29,178 nt of DNA from a virus: positions 1 through 29,178 of the IMG/VR virus record IMGVR_UViG_3300010160_000169; one strand, written 5' to 3'. Below, in pieces: positions 1,513 to 29,142 of this stretch (within the stretch, counting starts at the first letter, position 1; every line of letters begins with the position of its first letter). The position numbers were made by a program, and so were the translations under genes. The notes under the pieces were generated by a model, which made no database searches, was not told the origin of the DNA, and saw only the letters and a program-made list of their open reading frames with translations.

Positions 1513-2232
1513 ATGATAGATAATTTAATATTTAGAAGCAGCGCAACAGGTGGCTTATGTGGTAAAACAGGGCTTGGCGCAACAGGTGAGAAGCTTGCAA
1601 TTAAAACGTATTTACAGAAGCGTTATGGTAGGTACAAAGAAATTACAAATAAGTATCTTGAAAAAGGTATTGCTTGTGAAGATGCTGGTATTAAAACCTA
1701 TAATAGCCTATTTGATACGGATTATGTAAAGAATGATACTAGAGTTTACAATGATTTTATTACAGGTGAATGTGATATTGATACAGGTGATAGTATTATA
1801 GACATTAAAAACAGTTGGGATTTATTCACTTTTCACGAATCTAAAACGAGTGACAATAAATTATATGATTGGCAAGGCCAGTGCTATATGGAATTGTACG
1901 ATAGACCAACATTTCAATTGGTTTATGTTTTAGAAGATGCACCTGACTTAAATATCTTTAAGGAAATAAACTATGCTGGTGAAATTGAAGAGTGGGAAGA
2001 GGTGCAAATTATAGCCAATATGGTTTATTCTCAATCAACATTTGATAGGCTTATTGAAACTCAAGGATTGGGTGGCGATGTAAAAACTGATAAAGCTATA
2101 AAAAGTTTTATAGAAATTCCTGCAGCTGAAAGATTGCACGCTAAACAATTTAGTAGGGATTCAACAAAATATGAATTTATTAAAACAAGAATAAATGAAG
2201 CAAGAAAATTTTTAAAATCAATATACGAATAA
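1513..2232 (+). CDS. PD-(D/E)XK recombination exonuclease (YqaJ/lambda-exo-like)
   Basis: A 239-residue nuclease predicted to degrade one strand at double-strand ends and so feed single-strand annealing recombination. Visible motifs: Glu56 in GIACED, Asp88 in GECDI, Asp97-x-Lys99 in IIDIK, and the later helix DWQGQCYMELY (residues 119-129), which matches the Q-x-x-x-Y motif of lambda-exonuclease and RecB-type nucleases. The N-terminal SSATGGL and LGATGEKL may contribute to DNA-end binding. Length is near the 200-320 typical of the family. Its stop overlaps the next ATG by one base (TAATG at 2230-2234). No RecT or Erf annealase is recognisable nearby. Confidence 0.8.
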   Translation: MIDNLIFRSSATGGLCGKTGLGATGEKLAIKTYLQKRYGRYKEITNKYLEKGIACEDAGIKTYNSLFDTDYVKNDTRVYNDFITGECDIDTGDSIIDIKNSWDLFTFHESKTSDNKLYDWQGQCYMELYDRPTFQLVYVLEDAPDLNIFKEINYAGEIEEWEEVQIIANMVYSQSTFDRLIETQGLGGDVKTDKAIKSFIEIPAAERLHAKQFSRDSTKYEFIKTRINEARKFLKSIYE

Positions 2233-3362
2233 TGGAAATACAAAAAATCAAAAACGAAATAGCAGAATTGCTAACTGATAAAACTTTATCAGAAAAAATT
2301 AATTACATTAATGAATTAAGGGAAGCTATTCACAATCAATCACCTTTTAAAAATGAACCAGTTGATTATGTTAAATGGGTTTTAGCTGAAGATGTAATTG
2401 CTAATGATTACAATCCAAATAAAGTAGCTCCACCCGAAATGGAATTATTGGAAATATCAATTATGAATGATGGATATACTCAACCTGTTGTAACTTTCCC
2501 AAATAATGGTAAAATTGAAGTAGTTGATGGATTCCATAGAACTAGAGTAAGTAAAGAATCTAAAATAGTAAGAGAACGAGTTTTGGGATATACCCCTACT
2601 GTTATTATTAGAAAAGAACAAAGCAATAAAAATGATCGTATTGCATCTACAATAAGGCATAATAGAGCAAGAGGAAAGCATCAAGTTGATGCAATGAGTG
2701 AAATTATTTTAGAGCTTAAAAATAGAAATTGGAAAAACGAAAGAATAGCTAGAGAACTTGGAATGGATGAAGAAGAAATATTAAGACTTTGCCAAATTAC
2801 AGGCCTTCAAGATATTTTTAAAGATGATGATTTTAGTAAATCTTGGGAAAGTTCTGATTCAATTGCTAATTACGAAATTCTTACTGATGATTTATCAGAT
2901 GAAGAGGTTGAGCATTACAGAACTACAAACACAAGTGATCCTGAAAGAATATTTCATACTTTTGAAAAGTGGGAATGCCACAAAGCAGGTTTCTATGGTA
3001 ATAAAAAAGAAGGAATGACTGGTGATCAATGCGAACAGGAGTATGCAAATTATTTATCTAATGAGGAAAGATTTAGAGAAGGTTTAAATGGAGTAATAAA
3101 CGAGTGGATTAATTCTTGTGAGCATTATTTAACTAATAAAGCAATGAATAGAATTGCTTGGTTAGGACAGGCCGCAATGTGTTATTCTACTAAAATACCA
3201 TCTAAGTTTTGCGGTGGATTTAATTTATTAAGCCCAGAGCAACAGGATAAAGCAAATTTAATAGCTTTAGATGCTTTAAACTTTTGGATGAAAAAATACA
3301 ATAGATCAGAATTAACGATAGAGGAAGCTTTATCAATTGGCAGACAAGTTAATATTTACTAA
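2232..3362 (+). CDS. ParB/sulfiredoxin-fold protein, IbrB-like
   Basis: A 376-residue protein with a ParB/Srx-type nucleotide-binding domain: LAEDVIANDYNPNKV near residue 51, PPEMELLEISIMNDGYTQPV at 67-86, the GxHR-type box DGFHR at 99-103 and RHNRARGKH at 142-150. A helix-turn-helix-like segment (NWKNERIARELGMDEEEIL) follows at about 167-185. The C-terminal 170 residues are unlike classical partition ParB. The gene is followed directly by a PAPS-reductase-like gene, the arrangement of IbrB and IbrA in enterobacterial and phage elements. In ParB proteins this fold binds or hydrolyses CTP; the substrate here is unknown. No parA or parS-like site is visible, so plasmid-style partition is unlikely. 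Confidence 0.8.
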   Translation: MEIQKIKNEIAELLTDKTLSEKINYINELREAIHNQSPFKNEPVDYVKWVLAEDVIANDYNPNKVAPPEMELLEISIMNDGYTQPVVTFPNNGKIEVVDGFHRTRVSKESKIVRERVLGYTPTVIIRKEQSNKNDRIASTIRHNRARGKHQVDAMSEIILELKNRNWKNERIARELGMDEEEILRLCQITGLQDIFKDDDFSKSWESSDSIANYEILTDDLSDEEVEHYRTTNTSDPERIFHTFEKWECHKAGFYGNKKEGMTGDQCEQEYANYLSNEERFREGLNGVINEWINSCEHYLTNKAMNRIAWLGQAAMCYSTKIPSKFCGGFNLLSPEQQDKANLIALDALNFWMKKYNRSELTIEEALSIGRQVNIY

Positions 3363-3363
3363 T

Positions 3364-4572
3364 ATGGCTACAAAAGTATATAACGATAAATCAGTGCTTG
3401 AAGCAAGCAAAGAAAGAGTTTCTTTAGTTTTTGATAATTTTGAAAAAATATATATTTCATTTTCAGGAGGTAAAGATAGTAGCGTAATGTCTCATTTAGT
3501 ATTAGCTGAAGCTAAAAAAAGAAATAGAAAAGTTGGATTACTTATAATAGATTTAGAAGCACAGTATAATGATACAATAACTCATATAGAACATATGATT
3601 GAAATATATAAAGATTATATTGAATTACATTGGGTTTGTGCTGAATTATTATTAAGAAATGCAGTTAGTAATTATGAACCTAGATGGTGTTGTTGGGATA
3701 AAGAAAAAGAAGCAGTTTGGGTTAGACTAATGCCAAAACTTGCATCAGATTTAACTCAATATGATTTTTACCAACCAAAAATGGAGTTTGAAGAATTTAT
3801 GGTTATATTTGGCGAATGGTATTCACAAGGTAAAACTACTGCAGCATTTATAGGAATTAGATCGGATGAATCTTTGCATAGATATAGAGCAATAACATCT
3901 AGAAAAGATGGCTTAATGTTTAACAATTGGAAATGGTCAACAAAAGTATCTAATAAATTATTTAATATTTACCCTATTTATGATTGGAGAACTGAAGATA
4001 TTTGGGTATTTCACGGAAAATATAATGAATTACCACATAATAAAGTTTATGACAAAATGATGATGGCAGGAGTTAAAATAAGCCAACAAAGATTATGTCA
4101 ACCATATGGAGATGATCAAAGAAGGGGTTTATGGTTATATCACATATTAGAACCTGAAACTTGGTATAAATTAATATTAAGAGTTAATGGTGTAAATAGT
4201 GGAACTCTTTATATTAAAGAAAATGGAAATATGACTGGATACAATAAAATAACAAAACCTGAAGGGCATAGTTGGGAGTCATTTTGTAATTTACTATTAT
4301 CCACAATGCCTAAAAAAACACAAATACATTACAGGGAAAGATTTATTAAATTTATAAAAGGATGGCAAGATAGGGGGTATTTAGTAATACCTGATGAAGC
4401 TCCTGAAGATTTAGAATCTAAATGCTGGGTGCCATCGTGGAGAAGAATGTGTAAAGTAATGTTAAGAAATGATTATTGGTGTAAAGGATTAGGGCAAACT
4501 CAACCATTTTCTGAGGCTTATGGTAAATTTAAAGATATAAAGAAAAAAAGACAATTAGAAAAACAATTATAA
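3364..4572 (+). CDS. PAPS reductase-like PP-loop protein, IbrA/DUF3440-like
   Basis: A 402-residue protein. SGGKDS at residues 34-39 is the PP-loop ATP-pyrophosphatase motif of the PAPS reductase/DndC superfamily. Further blocks include WCCW (108-111), FIGIRSDESLHRYRAI, YPIYDWRTEDIWVF and RLCQPYGDDQRRGLW; Cys354, Cys363 and Cys373 lie in the C-terminal extension. The length and the tryptophan- and cysteine-rich C-terminal half fit IbrA/DUF3440 rather than the ~240-residue true PAPS reductases. A TTG start 27 nt upstream is possible, but ATG 3364, one base after the preceding stop, is preferred. The family has ill-defined chemistry; a role in sulfur-containing nucleic-acid modification or regulation is inference from superfamily membership. 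Confidence 0.85.
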   Translation: MATKVYNDKSVLEASKERVSLVFDNFEKIYISFSGGKDSSVMSHLVLAEAKKRNRKVGLLIIDLEAQYNDTITHIEHMIEIYKDYIELHWVCAELLLRNAVSNYEPRWCCWDKEKEAVWVRLMPKLASDLTQYDFYQPKMEFEEFMVIFGEWYSQGKTTAAFIGIRSDESLHRYRAITSRKDGLMFNNWKWSTKVSNKLFNIYPIYDWRTEDIWVFHGKYNELPHNKVYDKMMMAGVKISQQRLCQPYGDDQRRGLWLYHILEPETWYKLILRVNGVNSGTLYIKENGNMTGYNKITKPEGHSWESFCNLLLSTMPKKTQIHYRERFIKFIKGWQDRGYLVIPDEAPEDLESKCWVPSWRRMCKVMLRNDYWCKGLGQTQPFSEAYGKFKDIKKKRQLEKQL

Positions 4573-4577
4573 ATAAA

Positions 4578-4829
4578 ATGGTAATCAAAGGTAAGATCCT
4601 TCAAATTTGGGAAGTAAAACAAATAAGTGAGAAATTCAGTAATCAAGATTTTTTAATTGAAACTGATGGACAATATCCAAAAAAAGTATTAATGCAGGCT
4701 ATGAAATCAGCGCAGCCATATTTGGATAAATTAGTATTGGGCGATACTGGAACATTTAGCTTTGATGCTGAATCAAGGGAGTTTAATGGTAAATATTATA
4801 CCAATTTAAAGTGTTTTAAGATTAGCTAG
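4578..4829 (+). CDS. DUF3127 protein, putative OB-fold ssDNA-binding protein
   Basis: An 83-residue protein carrying the DUF3127 pattern: GKILQIWEVKQISEKFSNQD at the N-terminus, then FLIETDGQYPKKV and finally SFDAESREFNGKYYTNLKCF. The family is typical of Bacteroidota and their phages and is usually taken to be a small OB-fold nucleic-acid-binding protein. Its place between the recombination genes and the primase suggests a role in coating single-stranded DNA during replication or recombination (inference). The TAG stop lies inside the first repeat unit of the iteron-like array that begins at 4827. Confidence 0.8.
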   Translation: MVIKGKILQIWEVKQISEKFSNQDFLIETDGQYPKKVLMQAMKSAQPYLDKLVLGDTGTFSFDAESREFNGKYYTNLKCFKIS

Positions 4830-4887
4830 GTATAAATAGGTATAAAAGGTATAAAATATTTCCTTAGTTTAGCAATAGTACAATAAT

Positions 4888-4895
4888 TATATTTG
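4888..4895 (+). promoter_or_regulatory. candidate Bacteroidota-type promoter -7 element
   Basis: TATATTTG matches the TAnnTTTG consensus of the Bacteroidota primary sigma factor. The -33 region is weak: TTTA at about 4868-4871 lies at a plausible distance instead of TTTG or TTG. A transcript from here would cross the iteron-like repeats and the leader hairpins before the primase gene. One short motif in AT-rich DNA can arise by chance. Confidence 0.35.
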
Positions 4896-5033
4896 TAAAA
4901 TGCTTTTTAAAAAATTTGGAAAATAAAATGTACCTTTTATACCAAATAGGGTTAAAGTGCTGAAAATCACAGGTACATTTTAAGTATAAAAGCGGTATAA
5001 AAGTGTTTTAAGTTTATACAAAATGTACCAAAC

Positions 5034-5054
5034 TATTTAGAATCATTCTAAATA
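5034..5054. repeat. perfect 10-bp inverted repeat with 1-bp centre
   Basis: TATTTAGAAT, a single C, then ATTCTAAATA. It sits between the iteron-like words and the AT-rich tract. It could be an operator for a dimeric DNA-binding protein or an origin cruciform. No T-run follows on either strand, so it is not a terminator. Confidence 0.6.
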
Positions 5055-5138
5055 AGGTTATTATTTGTAATTAATCTAAATAACTAAAGTTTAAAATTAA
5101 ATAGTAACAATGTAATATAATTAAATATTATTGTAAAG

Positions 5139-5238
5139 TTAGTTGTAGTAGAAGCCAACTAATATGAATCGCATTTTATCTTTTGCAGTTAAAATATAGA
5201 TTAAGCCCCTTTTAGCTTCTACCTAATTGGGGCTTTTT
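5139..5238 (+). ncRNA. structured leader RNA with complementary hairpin loops
   Basis: The first hairpin has stem TTAGTTG (5139-5145) with CAACTAA (5156-5162) and a 10-nt loop. The second is the terminator hairpin at 5203-5235 with a 19-nt loop. Loop segment GTAGAAGC (5148-5155) is the exact complement of GCTTCTAC (5215-5222) in the second loop, giving a possible 8-bp kissing interaction. Both elements precede the primase-helicase start by 14 nt or more. An attenuator controlling that gene, or a small RNA ending at the terminator, would fit. No known RNA family is recognised. Confidence 0.5.
5203..5238 (+). terminator. rho-independent-type terminator upstream of primase gene
   Basis: Stem AAGCCCC (5203-5209) pairs with GGGGCTT (5229-5235), and a run of five T ends at 5238. 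The 19-nt loop carries GCTTCTAC, which is complementary to the loop of the hairpin at 5139-5162. It lies 14 nt before the start codon of the primase-helicase, so it either separates the upstream operon from a promoter I cannot place, or works as a conditional terminator. Confidence 0.7.
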
Positions 5239-5251
5239 CGTCTAATATAAT

Positions 5252-7618
5252 ATGATAGTTTCAATATACAAAACAGTTAAGGATACATCAAATCCTTTTA
5301 ATAAGCCAGTGCAGGTTGCATTGGATAGGATAAAAAATGGAACTTCTAAAGAGTTAAATTTACAAATAAGAGCAACAGCATCAAAAGATGAGCAAAAGCC
5401 ATTAAAAGCATTATTAAGTGGTGTTTGTTTTAATGGAACTTTTATAAAACGATCAATAAAAGGATTAGATAAAAAATCGGGGTTAATAGTATTAGATTTT
5501 GATGAATTTGAAAATGAGCAAAAAGCAATTGATTTTAAAGAAAGTTTAAAAGAAGATGCTTATATATTTGCTGCCTGGATAAGTCCAAGCGGAAAAGGTG
5601 TAAAGGTATTGGTAAAGATTCCAACTGAAGGCGAACATAAACAATATTTTAATGCACTACAAAAGCACTTTAATAGTCCGAATTGGGATGTATCAGGTTC
5701 AAATATTGATAGATTTTGTTTTGAATCTTATGATCCTGATTTGTTTCAAAATAATGATTCATTAGTTTGGGAGTTTATAGAATTACCTGAATATAATGAA
5801 ATTGAAACTAATGAAGTAAGTATTCCAATTAAATCTGAAAGAATAATTATTGAAAAATTACTAAAATGGTGGGAAAAGAAATATGGCTTAGTAAAAGGTA
5901 ATATTAATAATAACTTACACATTTTAGCTAAAGCATTCAATACTTTTGGAATACCAAAAAGCGAATGCGAACACGTTTTAAAATCAATGGTTAGTATAGA
6001 TAAGGACAAAGAAGTGCAACAATTAATAGATTCAGCATATAAGCACACATCTGAGTTTAATACTAAACAATTTAATGATAGAACAGCAAAACAAAAGATT
6101 GAAAAACAAGTTATTTCGGGTGCAAAAAATGCTGATATTGTAAAGCTTTATCCTAATTTTACACCAGTAGAAATTGAAAGTTGTATATTAACAATTAAGC
6201 AAAATAATATAAATGATAACTTTTGGGAATATGATGAAAAAGGTAAATGTATAGTTAGTCCACATAAATATAAATTTTGGTTAGAGGATAACAATTTTTT
6301 TAAATACTTTCCTACTGATACTAATACTTATACATTTATAAGAAAACATCAAGGATTAATTGAGGAAACAAACGAAAAAAGAATAAAGGATTATGTTTTA
6401 ACATATTTACTTAAAAGAACTGATATAGGATTTGCGCCATATGATATGATGGTAAGCACAACTAAAAATTTTACATCTGAATATTTAAGTTGTTTAGAAA
6501 GTGCTAATATTAATTTAAAAGAAGATACTATTGACAGTTGTTTTATATATTTTCAAAACAAAGTATTAAGAATAACAAAAGATAATATTGAACAAATTGA
6601 TTATTTGAATATTAAGGATTACGTTTGGAAAAAACAAGTTATAGCACGTGATTATGTTGAAACTGATCACCATAAGAGTGAATTCAGAAAGTTTATTTGG
6701 CTTATATCTGGTCAAGATGTAACAAGATATGATACACTAAAATCGGTTATAGGTTATTTATTACATTCATATAAAACAAGTGCAAATAATAGAGCTGTAA
6801 TATTTAATGATGAAATTATAAGTGATAATCCTAATGGTGGTAGTGGTAAAGGTTTGTTTTGTAATGCACTTGGTAAAATGAAAAAAGTTGCTTCTATTGA
6901 TGGTAAAACATTTGAATTTACTAAATCATTTCCTTATCAAACAGTTGGAACTGATACGCAATTATTGGTGTTTGATGATGTAAAAAAGAACTTTAGTTTT
7001 GAATCATTATTTAGTTTAATTACTGAAGGATTAACTTTAGAATATAAGGGCCAGGATGCAATTAAGCTTCCAATAAATAAAAGCCCAAAAATATTAATTA
7101 CAACTAATTACACAATAGGTGGAGTTGGTGGATCATTTGAGCGTAGGAAATTTGAAGTTGAATTAAGTGGATACTTTAATAGTAAATACACTCCATTGGA
7201 TGAATGGGATCATATGTTTTTTGATGATTGGAGCGAATTAGAATGGTCAAGGTTTGACAATTATATGATTCAATGCTGCCAGTTTTATTTAAAGAATGGA
7301 TTAGTTAAAAACAGTTTTGTAAATTTAGAACTTAAAAAATTAATTAATGAAACTAAAAAAGAGTTTATTGATTGGGCAAGTTTAGAAACATTACCATTAA
7401 ATACAAGACTACCAAAAGATGAAATTTATAATTTGTTGGTTCGTGATTATTCAGATTTCTCTAAATGGTTAAGAAAAAACACATTAACCAAATGGCTTAA
7501 AATATATGCTGATTACCATAATTATAAAGTTATAGAAGGAAAAACCAATAATGTATATTGGATTGAATTTACATTACCAACAGGAACATACGAAAATCCA
7601 ATAAAATTTGACATATGA
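5252..7618 (+). CDS. primase-helicase: VirE-N/BT4734-like primase domain plus SF3-type ATPase
   Basis: A 788-residue replication protein. The N-terminal domain (about 1-175) shows the BT4734/VirE-N pattern: LDFDEF at 81-86 with the paired aspartates of archaeo-eukaryotic primases, SPSGKGVKVLVKI at 111-123, and SGSNIDRFCFESYDPDLF near 148-165. A helical linker follows (WWEKKYGLVKGNINNNLHIL). The C-terminal part is a phage/plasmid-type helicase with Walker A GGSGKG at 529-534, Walker B LLVFDDV, and sensor-like KILITTNYTIGG. It probably primes and unwinds phage DNA at the origin just upstream. Its stop overlaps the next gene (ATGA). Confidence 0.88.
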   Translation: MIVSIYKTVKDTSNPFNKPVQVALDRIKNGTSKELNLQIRATASKDEQKPLKALLSGVCFNGTFIKRSIKGLDKKSGLIVLDFDEFENEQKAIDFKESLKEDAYIFAAWISPSGKGVKVLVKIPTEGEHKQYFNALQKHFNSPNWDVSGSNIDRFCFESYDPDLFQNNDSLVWEFIELPEYNEIETNEVSIPIKSERIIIEKLLKWWEKKYGLVKGNINNNLHILAKAFNTFGIPKSECEHVLKSMVSIDKDKEVQQLIDSAYKHTSEFNTKQFNDRTAKQKIEKQVISGAKNADIVKLYPNFTPVEIESCILTIKQNNINDNFWEYDEKGKCIVSPHKYKFWLEDNNFFKYFPTDTNTYTFIRKHQGLIEETNEKRIKDYVLTYLLKRTDIGFAPYDMMVSTTKNFTSEYLSCLESANINLKEDTIDSCFIYFQNKVLRITKDNIEQIDYLNIKDYVWKKQVIARDYVETDHHKSEFRKFIWLISGQDVTRYDTLKSVIGYLLHSYKTSANNRAVIFNDEIISDNPNGGSGKGLFCNALGKMKKVASIDGKTFEFTKSFPYQTVGTDTQLLVFDDVKKNFSFESLFSLITEGLTLEYKGQDAIKLPINKSPKILITTNYTIGGVGGSFERRKFEVELSGYFNSKYTPLDEWDHMFFDDWSELEWSRFDNYMIQCCQFYLKNGLVKNSFVNLELKKLINETKKEFIDWASLETLPLNTRLPKDEIYNLLVRDYSDFSKWLRKNTLTKWLKIYADYHNYKVIEGKTNNVYWIEFTLPTGTYENPIKFDI

Positions 7619-9850: not shown

Positions 9851-10069
9851 ATGATAGGTCAATCAATACAAGATACAAAAACTAAATACTATTATCATAT
9901 AGTAGAGTATAATGCTAACTATGTCAAAGCTAACTGTTATAACCAAAGAGCATTGAATAGTCAATTACAATTTAGTAGAAGCTACTTTAATGAGCTGATA
10001 ATGGATGGTGGTATAGTTGTAGTGGATAGAAGTAATATAATAGGTAACAAGTCTATATACTTAGGATAA
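9851..10069 (+). CDS. 72-residue protein before HNH gene, unknown function
   Basis: Encodes MIGQSIQDTKTKYYYHIVEY at the start and GGIVVVDRSNIIGNKSIYLG at the end; mixed alpha/beta with many Tyr and Asn. No family is recognised. Its stop overlaps the ATG of the HNH gene by one base (TAATG at 10067-10071). The position just before the packaging genes suggests expression with them. The 34 nt upstream hold only a partial promoter-like word (CATTTG). Confidence 0.6.
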   Translation: MIGQSIQDTKTKYYYHIVEYNANYVKANCYNQRALNSQLQFSRSYFNELIMDGGIVVVDRSNIIGNKSIYLG

Positions 10070-28884: not shown

Positions 28885-29142
28885 ATGAAAATTACAATCA
28901 CAAAAACAGTAGAAGAAACGCACGATATTGAATTACCTGCGTATCGTAAAAACAGTTGTCATTACTTTAAGATAGTAAGTGAAACACAAGCAGTATTAGT
29001 TTGCACTTATTCAGGTGGAGAATCAATCGCAACAAGTACAACCAGTAGTGCTTTAAGTTTAGCACCATTAGAATCAAGTCAAGAAGAGTTTGATGCCAAG
29101 TTCAATGAAGTATTTACATTAATAAGCGAGAAAGCATCATAA
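28885..29142 (+). CDS. small early protein of unknown function, allele 2
   Basis: An 85-residue homologue of the protein at 224-499, with matching ends (MKITITKTVEETHDIELPAY; FNEVFTLISEKAS) and a variable centre (SGGESIATST). Here TAA ends the protein and shares its last A with the next ATG (TAATG), whereas the other copy reads CTA and continues for six residues. This copy has the coupling style most common in this genome and may be the ancestral form. Confidence 0.75.
   Translation: MKITITKTVEETHDIELPAYRKNSCHYFKIVSETQAVLVCTYSGGESIATSTTSSALSLAPLESSQEEFDAKFNEVFTLISEKAS

Follow-up and report, generated by a model that had tools for sequence, protein, structure and literature searches.

A hypervariable pair of complementary hairpin loops in phage leaders, read as a candidate self-kissing transcription attenuator

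The virus record IMGVR_UViG_3300010160_000169 (the window, the whole stretch of 29,178 bases analyzed here) carries a short leader ahead of its primase-helicase gene, in which the loop of a promoter-proximal hairpin is exactly complementary to the apical loop of an intrinsic terminator. Given its architecture and its behavior among relatives, we regard this leader as probably a cis-acting phage transcription attenuator that uses a self-kissing, jointly diversified loop pair. In dozens of related phages the match persists under changed letters, which is indicative of a new, rapidly evolving RNA switch or phage self-recognition tag. Terminator loops ordinarily have no function of their own and vary without constraint, whereas in these leaders pairing ties the loop to the 5' end of the RNA that contains it. 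The tie spans very divergent phages and many genes, and its letters are exchanged more rapidly than the DNA on either side. Should this be confirmed, the arrangement would constitute a new topology of transcription attenuation, a kissing-assisted terminator, and the element family would amount to a natural library of orthogonal RNA pairs.

The leader and its surroundings in the window

The window encodes siphovirus-like genes on a single strand (terminase, portal and prohead protease), together with a ParB-like protein and a PAPS-reductase/DUF3440 protein. Annotated relatives of its primase come from Flavobacterium, Cellulophaga, Polaribacter, Maribacter and Bacteroides phages, from which we infer a Bacteroidota host. 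No Phage_integrase match was found in the window and 19 related records (20 in total, several possibly incomplete), which suggests virulent phages, though some records may be fragments. The features of the leader region are as follows.

5034-5083, no strand assigned: a 22-nt palindrome, TATTTAGAATCATTCTAAATAA, at 5034-5055, repeated in diverged form at 5062-5083 (repeat search)
5126-5133, plus strand: TATTATTG, a probable -7 promoter box that departs from the Bacteroidota TAnnTTTG at one position
5138-5163, plus strand: promoter-proximal hairpin H1 (sequence and fold; stem covaries between relatives)
5148-5155, plus strand: X, GTAGAAGC, within the H1 loop
5164-5202, plus strand: AU-rich spacer, the place of a small middle hairpin in several relatives
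5203-5238, plus strand: intrinsic terminator (sequence features and fold)
5215-5222, plus strand: X', GCTTCTAC, in the terminator apical loop, the complement of X
5252-7618, plus strand: primase-helicase, the gene behind the leader (open reading frame; Pfam BT4734-like N-terminal domain and DUF5906)

A first-pass annotation of this DNA had described two hairpins with loops complementary over 8 nt, and the sequence bears this out exactly, X at 5148-5155 matching X' at 5215-5222 throughout. The H1 stem joins TTAGTTG (5139-5145) to CAACTAA (5156-5162), with an additional G-U pair at 5138/5163, and encloses the 10-nt loop TAGTAGAAGC (5146-5155). The outer stem of the terminator joins AAGCCCC (5203-5209) to GGGGCTT (5229-5235) and runs into a T tract at 5234-5238, 13 nt before the primase-helicase ATG at 5252. 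Since an inner stem, TTAG (5212-5215) with CTAA (5223-5226), lies inside the terminator loop and is present in the MFE fold, the true apical loop is the 7-nt CTTCTAC, which pairs with GTAGAAG; the eighth X/X' pair uses G5215 and so competes with the inner stem.

X/X' is the sole hairpin/terminator pair of its kind on either strand of the window; shuffling the entire window under a first-order Markov model yields 0.2 pairs of at least 7 nt by chance. The probability of at least 8 nt at the leader is 0.0007 for a random 10-nt loop and 0.027 when the entire 69-nt upstream stretch is shuffled, and the leader fold exceeds shuffles in stability (z -2.85). Significance at this locus by itself is modest; the comparative evidence is decisive. 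The X and X' 8-mers recur in the window only at 9975 and 18796, within open reading frames, and were taken as chance. A search with the window X found GTAGAAGCCAACTAA in 17 viral stretches; decoy copies of X were considered and set aside, the partner being present, among the loci collected at that point, only where the leader was the same. A search for tRNA-like or tmRNA structures returned none.

The first-pass annotation had also raised the possibility of a promoter inside the gap before the primase gene, and a probable -7 box indeed lies just upstream of H1. It is perfect in close relatives (TACTTTTG in L003 and TATTTTTG in L004; L-numbers denote related loci). A perfect TAnnTTTG stands 98-136 nt before the start codon, and in one case at 196, in 27 of the 28 leaders listed. 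Among 22 representative leaders, 20 have a sense-strand box between -150 and -90, where about 1.5 would be expected. A sigma-70 promoter scan performed no better than on shuffles. Because the box sits immediately upstream of H1, the RNA is predicted to start at H1, and X, which begins 4-27 nt past the box, would lie at or near the RNA 5' end. The broad features of an attenuator leader are thus present at the level of sequence: promoter, short leader, G+C-rich hairpin with a U tract, then the gene.

Upstream of the promoter, positions 4827-5083 hold iteron-like direct and inverted repeats (GGTATAAA/AAAATGTACC) and the two palindromes; different repeat arrays (GTACAC, GGGGCAGATT, GGTAAGTGTAAT) occupy the same place in other clades. 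The palindromes are a possible operator, with a comparable palindrome upstream of the leader in L006-L011, and the arrays could represent a replication origin or an operator array. Location of an origin by GC skew was abandoned: with every gene on the same strand, the skew is positive throughout and carries no information. Near the record ends (224-499 and 28885-29142) stand two similar open reading frames of 85-91 aa, which may be adjacent in the case of a circular or circularly permuted genome. At 2232-4572 the ParB-like protein adjoins the PAPS-reductase/DUF3440 protein, a pair possibly tied to DNA modification or defence.

Joint change of the two loops among related leaders

Leaders were gathered via relatives of the primase, with hairpins disregarded, and those with both a box and a terminator were kept as the sole selection criteria. 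This yielded 65 leaders in 20 clusters. Complementarity of at least 7 nt between the upstream stretch and the terminator loop occurs in 14 of the 20 clusters, against 0.74 expected from shuffles, and none of 20,000 permutations that re-paired upstream parts with loops reached 14. At a threshold of at least 6 nt, all 16 clusters of the X/X' type qualify; the remaining 4 of the 20 have a second architecture, described below. The match is specific to the loop (16/16), the 5' arm of the terminator being matched in 2/16 (0.64 expected) and the 3' arm in 0/16. It is also far commoner at the primase than elsewhere: within 110 nt upstream, at least 7 nt are found for 13 of the 15 terminators at the primase versus 55 of 339 other terminator-like hairpins in the same loci. 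In models of the clusters X' occupies the terminator apical loop, X is either in the loop of H1 or at the RNA's 5' end, and 11-20 nt (8 in one case) separate the end of X' from the T tract. Between lineages the pair differs on both sides, as in the following examples (X/X').

L006: GTAGAGA/TCTCTAC
L017: GATGCAG/CTGCATC
L026: GATACAG/CTGTATC
L111: AGTGGTAG/CTACCACT
L112: GTGGTGG/CCACCAC
L113: CTGGAAG/CTTCCAG
L114: CTCTCTGA/TCAGAGAG
L127: CTCACTAC/GTAGTGAG
L229: GCTTCTCAC/GTGAGAAGC
L236: CTCTTCAC/GTGAAGAG
L243 (Bacteroidota MAG): CCTTCAC/GTGAAGG

The same layout with other letters recurs in L252, L253, L232, L287, L318 and others. The kissing complex with the terminator loop envisaged by the first-pass annotation is therefore kept across relatives through compensatory changes on both sides, and the loop complementarity is conserved as a pairing between letters that are hypervariable. 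Covariation among homologous leaders, the absence of which had been named beforehand as refuting, was found. The H1 stem covaries between relatives. When the kissing helix of the GATRCAG clade is treated as a pseudoknot, 95.2% of cells are paired and 10 pairs change on both sides, with a covariation score of 0.232 compared to 0.080 when shuffled (0/500 shuffles); slid control structures are only 40-46% paired. Since just one of the seven kissing pairs varies within this clade, from A-U to G-C, the evidence for kissing comes mostly from comparisons between clades.

Replacement of the pair is fast. Between L159 and L160 the primase gene and the sequence upstream show 96% identity and 10% of 4-fold sites have changed, yet loop, partner and outer stem all differ (GGGG/CCCC to GGCAG/CTGCC). 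L229 and L236, with genes 90% identical, differ on both sides in the kissing pair and the H1 stem. The cultured Flavobacterium phages elemoA and elemoE share one host strain, Flavobacterium sp. BAL314; in their alignment the leader is replaced between two flanks that match completely or almost so, namely the 53 nt up to and including the -7 box and the 3' flank. Both leaders fold into H1 and a terminator whose loop carries the partner, and both precede a small open reading frame followed by a replication protein. Their transcripts would begin a few nt past TATCTTTG and end at the leader T tract.

elemoE: GTGGAGG/CCTCCAC
elemoA: TGAGAGC/GCTCTCA

Such fast joint replacement of X and X' suggests, as a reading of these alignments, selection for private pairs. 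Modular recombination can also generate hypervariability, a point that counts against the attenuator reading. So do the leaders that lack an H1 stem, and the loss of X in L158 and L330. In these two loci the terminator loop X' (TCAGAGAG) is kept and its 5' partner is gone after upstream replacement. A convincing element was not found in the isolates FPSV-S1, lotta8-1, phi46:1, Leef_1, Panino and MW202828. The terminators of L114, L127, L172 and L252 carry a conserved symmetric internal loop (UGAA.../...GGAU) between outer and inner stems; it has the potential for tandem G-A pairs and is possibly a protein-binding or structured motif.

Other genes and a second architecture

The first-pass annotation linked the leader to the primase gene. 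It does precede the primase in the window, and elsewhere the same element stands before other genes, so the element is not primase-specific. In loci with a gene inserted between leader and primase, the leader remains with the inserted gene. Both strands of all loci (4.88 Mb) were scanned for TAnnTTTG followed by a terminator whose loop is complementary over at least 7 nt to the first 38 nt, which gave 78 matches versus 12 on reversed sequence. Counting only matches with an open reading frame behind them, there are 36 clusters, in which X takes 34 different sequences; a primase follows in 16, and endonuclease-like genes, a DNA methylase and small open reading frames follow in the rest (resemblance to GIY-YIG and HNH/NUMOD endonucleases was judged by eye). 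A few of the 36 are probably chance, for example the match at 4740 in L112, within the primase gene. By selection, X fits its own terminator in 36/36 clusters; it fits the terminator of another cluster in 0.9% of pairs.

Single loci can hold several pairs, as in L129 with three mutually unrelated ones (AGTGGTAG, AGTTGCGTT and ACCGCCAA), and a near-identical open reading frame lies behind different elements in L115 and L222. Small open reading frames or putative homing-endonuclease genes stand between leader and primase in L115, L124, L129, L134, L238, L228 and L332. The pair CCGCCAAG/CTTGGCGG recurs before unrelated small genes in L115, L118, L121, L129, L220 and L224, and this recurrence suggests that the leader moves as a cassette.

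In the second architecture (type B), found in the L013/L136 clade, the transcript would begin with the terminator itself. Its apical loop is complementary over 7-9 nt to a segment that directly follows the T tract in 11/11 clusters. This segment is hypervariable and is often repeated before the start codon, in one or two copies. On the primase tree type B occupies one clade and the separate row L240. Type B leaders occur in L013, L133, L147, L155, L159, L160, L161, L171, L190, L194, L195, L202 and L240, with GTCGGAGGCATCCAC or GG-TTAGCTG-CC as the inner hairpin. Pairing between a terminator loop and another part of the leader is thus selected in more than one form. In type B the cis pairing can form only after read-through, which favors an effect on translation or a target in trans; it cannot affect termination in cis, and this counts against the cis attenuator model.

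A candidate attenuator, its alternatives and its known counterparts

In the cis attenuator that we favor, transcription would start just past the -7 box, and the 5' hairpin would fold first with X in its loop, or X would lie bare at the 5' end. The terminator would follow, its small inner hairpin displaying X' in the apical loop. RNA polymerase holds about 14 nt of RNA, so that X' would emerge at the moment when the polymerase reaches the T tract, by which time H1 would have folded. On leaving the polymerase, X', which lies 11-20 nt ahead of the T tract, would then pair with X (7-9 bp). Since this pairing sits atop the terminator, whose inner stems are weak at 2-5 bp, the kiss may stabilize or pace the terminator, helping to nucleate or time it and thereby determining what share of the polymerases continues into the gene. 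Polymerases that do not read through would release an RNA of about 100 nt. The opposite sign, with the kiss hindering the terminator, is also conceivable. The letters of X and X' would count only as a pair and be replaced jointly, even between sibling phages on one host, probably to avoid cross-pairing in trans with other leaders of the same phage or of co-infecting relatives.

The first-pass annotation had proposed that a kissing complex or pseudoknot could switch terminator formation. A conventional terminator/antiterminator switch was rejected, as the upstream stretch has no complementarity to the terminator arms; pairing without contact to the arms leaves them free, is compatible with the stem and implies no antiterminator-like competition. 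Control by an antisense RNA was rejected as well: an antisense TAnnTTTG between -110 and +120 around the start codon occurs in 3 of 22 leaders, which is background.

An unlikely alternative is that the leader acts mainly in trans, the released RNA of about 100 nt kissing leaders with the same pair, whether nascent or complete, and lowering expression of the gene behind them. In that role it would serve a phage for copy control and exclude relatives in an allele-specific way (heteroimmunity), in the manner of P1/P7 c4 or plasmid antisense RNAs. Replacement of the pair between same-host phages with identical promoters and between primases 93-96% identical fits this idea, as do several mutually unrelated pairs per genome and the type B loop, whose partner next to the start codon would be a natural trans target. 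However, both partners reside on the same RNA, where cis pairing should win, and for this reason we rate action in trans below the cis attenuator; the lack of a separate antisense promoter (the same 3/22) and of integrase matches in 20 records, several possibly incomplete, which would make lysogenic immunity unlikely, weighs against it too. An extension that we hold just as tentatively is RNA-only self/non-self recognition in virulent Bacteroidota phages, in which the leader RNA would shut down replication or endonuclease genes of co-infectors with the same pair, relatives would escape by swapping both loops, and the pair would be a hypervariable incompatibility or heteroimmunity type. Such RNA-based competition between virulent phages is testable with elemoA and elemoE, which share the promoter and differ in the leader.

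More doubtful is a kissing complex that serves simply as a stable structured RNA or as a platform for a protein (an antiterminator or RNA-binding factor), X and X' drifting neutrally. The architecture is kept though nearly all letters change, and the element precedes many unrelated genes, as expected of a shared trans factor; yet in siblings X and X' change far faster than 4-fold sites, unlike neutral drift under a pairing constraint, and no factor was identified. Very improbable, in our estimate, is that the inverted repeats act as DNA (repressor sites, a cruciform or an origin). The palindromes and iteron-like repeats just upstream and the replication gene behind would suit such a role, but X' lies in an apical loop closed by a covarying inner stem, with a T tract after it and a promoter before it, and the element invariably has the same orientation as the gene that follows, endonucleases and other non-replication genes included. 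Least credible is chance complementarity at an ordinary promoter and terminator. Taken singly, the window offers a P of only 0.027 over the whole upstream stretch, and 55/339 other terminator-like hairpins reach 7 nt; the counts of 13/15 at the primase and 14/20 clusters, the covariation and the elemoA/elemoE replacement speak against it.

The first-pass annotation knew of no RNA family with this layout, and in agreement no description of such a leader was found in the open literature, nor any Rfam match, to C4 or another family, at the gathering threshold in the window and 12 related loci. Rfam on the leader returned only three matches, with E of 0.5-1.9, far below gathering scores. Several known systems nevertheless share parts of the design. 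Attenuators of the pT181 type control plasmid copy number by leader kissing and a terminator (PMC3753616). In both cases a 5' hairpin loop kisses and governs, here putatively, an intrinsic terminator before a replication gene, with specificity set by the loop; in pT181, however, the antisense RNA comes from the opposite strand, whereas here the partner is the terminator's own loop. The terminator and antiterminator folds of pT181 are mutually exclusive, while the present leaders are without antisense box enrichment and without complementarity to the terminator arms.

The P4 CI RNA is a phage immunity RNA that acts before a primase gene. The c4 RNA of P1/P7 is likewise a phage immunity RNA, with heteroimmunity (PMC12197685). 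Like these, the element would yield a short RNA derived from a phage leader with complementary loop segments, small changes of which separate heteroimmune phages, and c4, as would be the case for type B, pairs close to a ribosome-binding site. Unlike them, it would pair in cis with the terminator loop, and no integrase was found in the 20 records, several possibly incomplete; c4 and P4 RNAs belong to temperate elements and act in trans. The HMP-PP (thiS) riboswitch has a terminator-embedded pseudoknot (PMC6478431) and is similarly a compact leader whose terminator hairpin forms a pseudoknot with upstream RNA. Its loop, however, is highly conserved and ligand-bound, and its pseudoknot excludes the terminator stem; here the loop is hypervariable (34 X in 36 clusters), and the pairing is confined to the loop and compatible with the stem.

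In ColE1, RNA I and RNA II pair through fully complementary kissing loops of about 7 nt, and paired substitutions change their specificity. That interaction is intermolecular and controls primer processing, with no terminator; the loops of the leaders described here resemble those of ColE1 in their length of about 7 nt, their full complementarity and a specificity that would be altered by paired substitutions.
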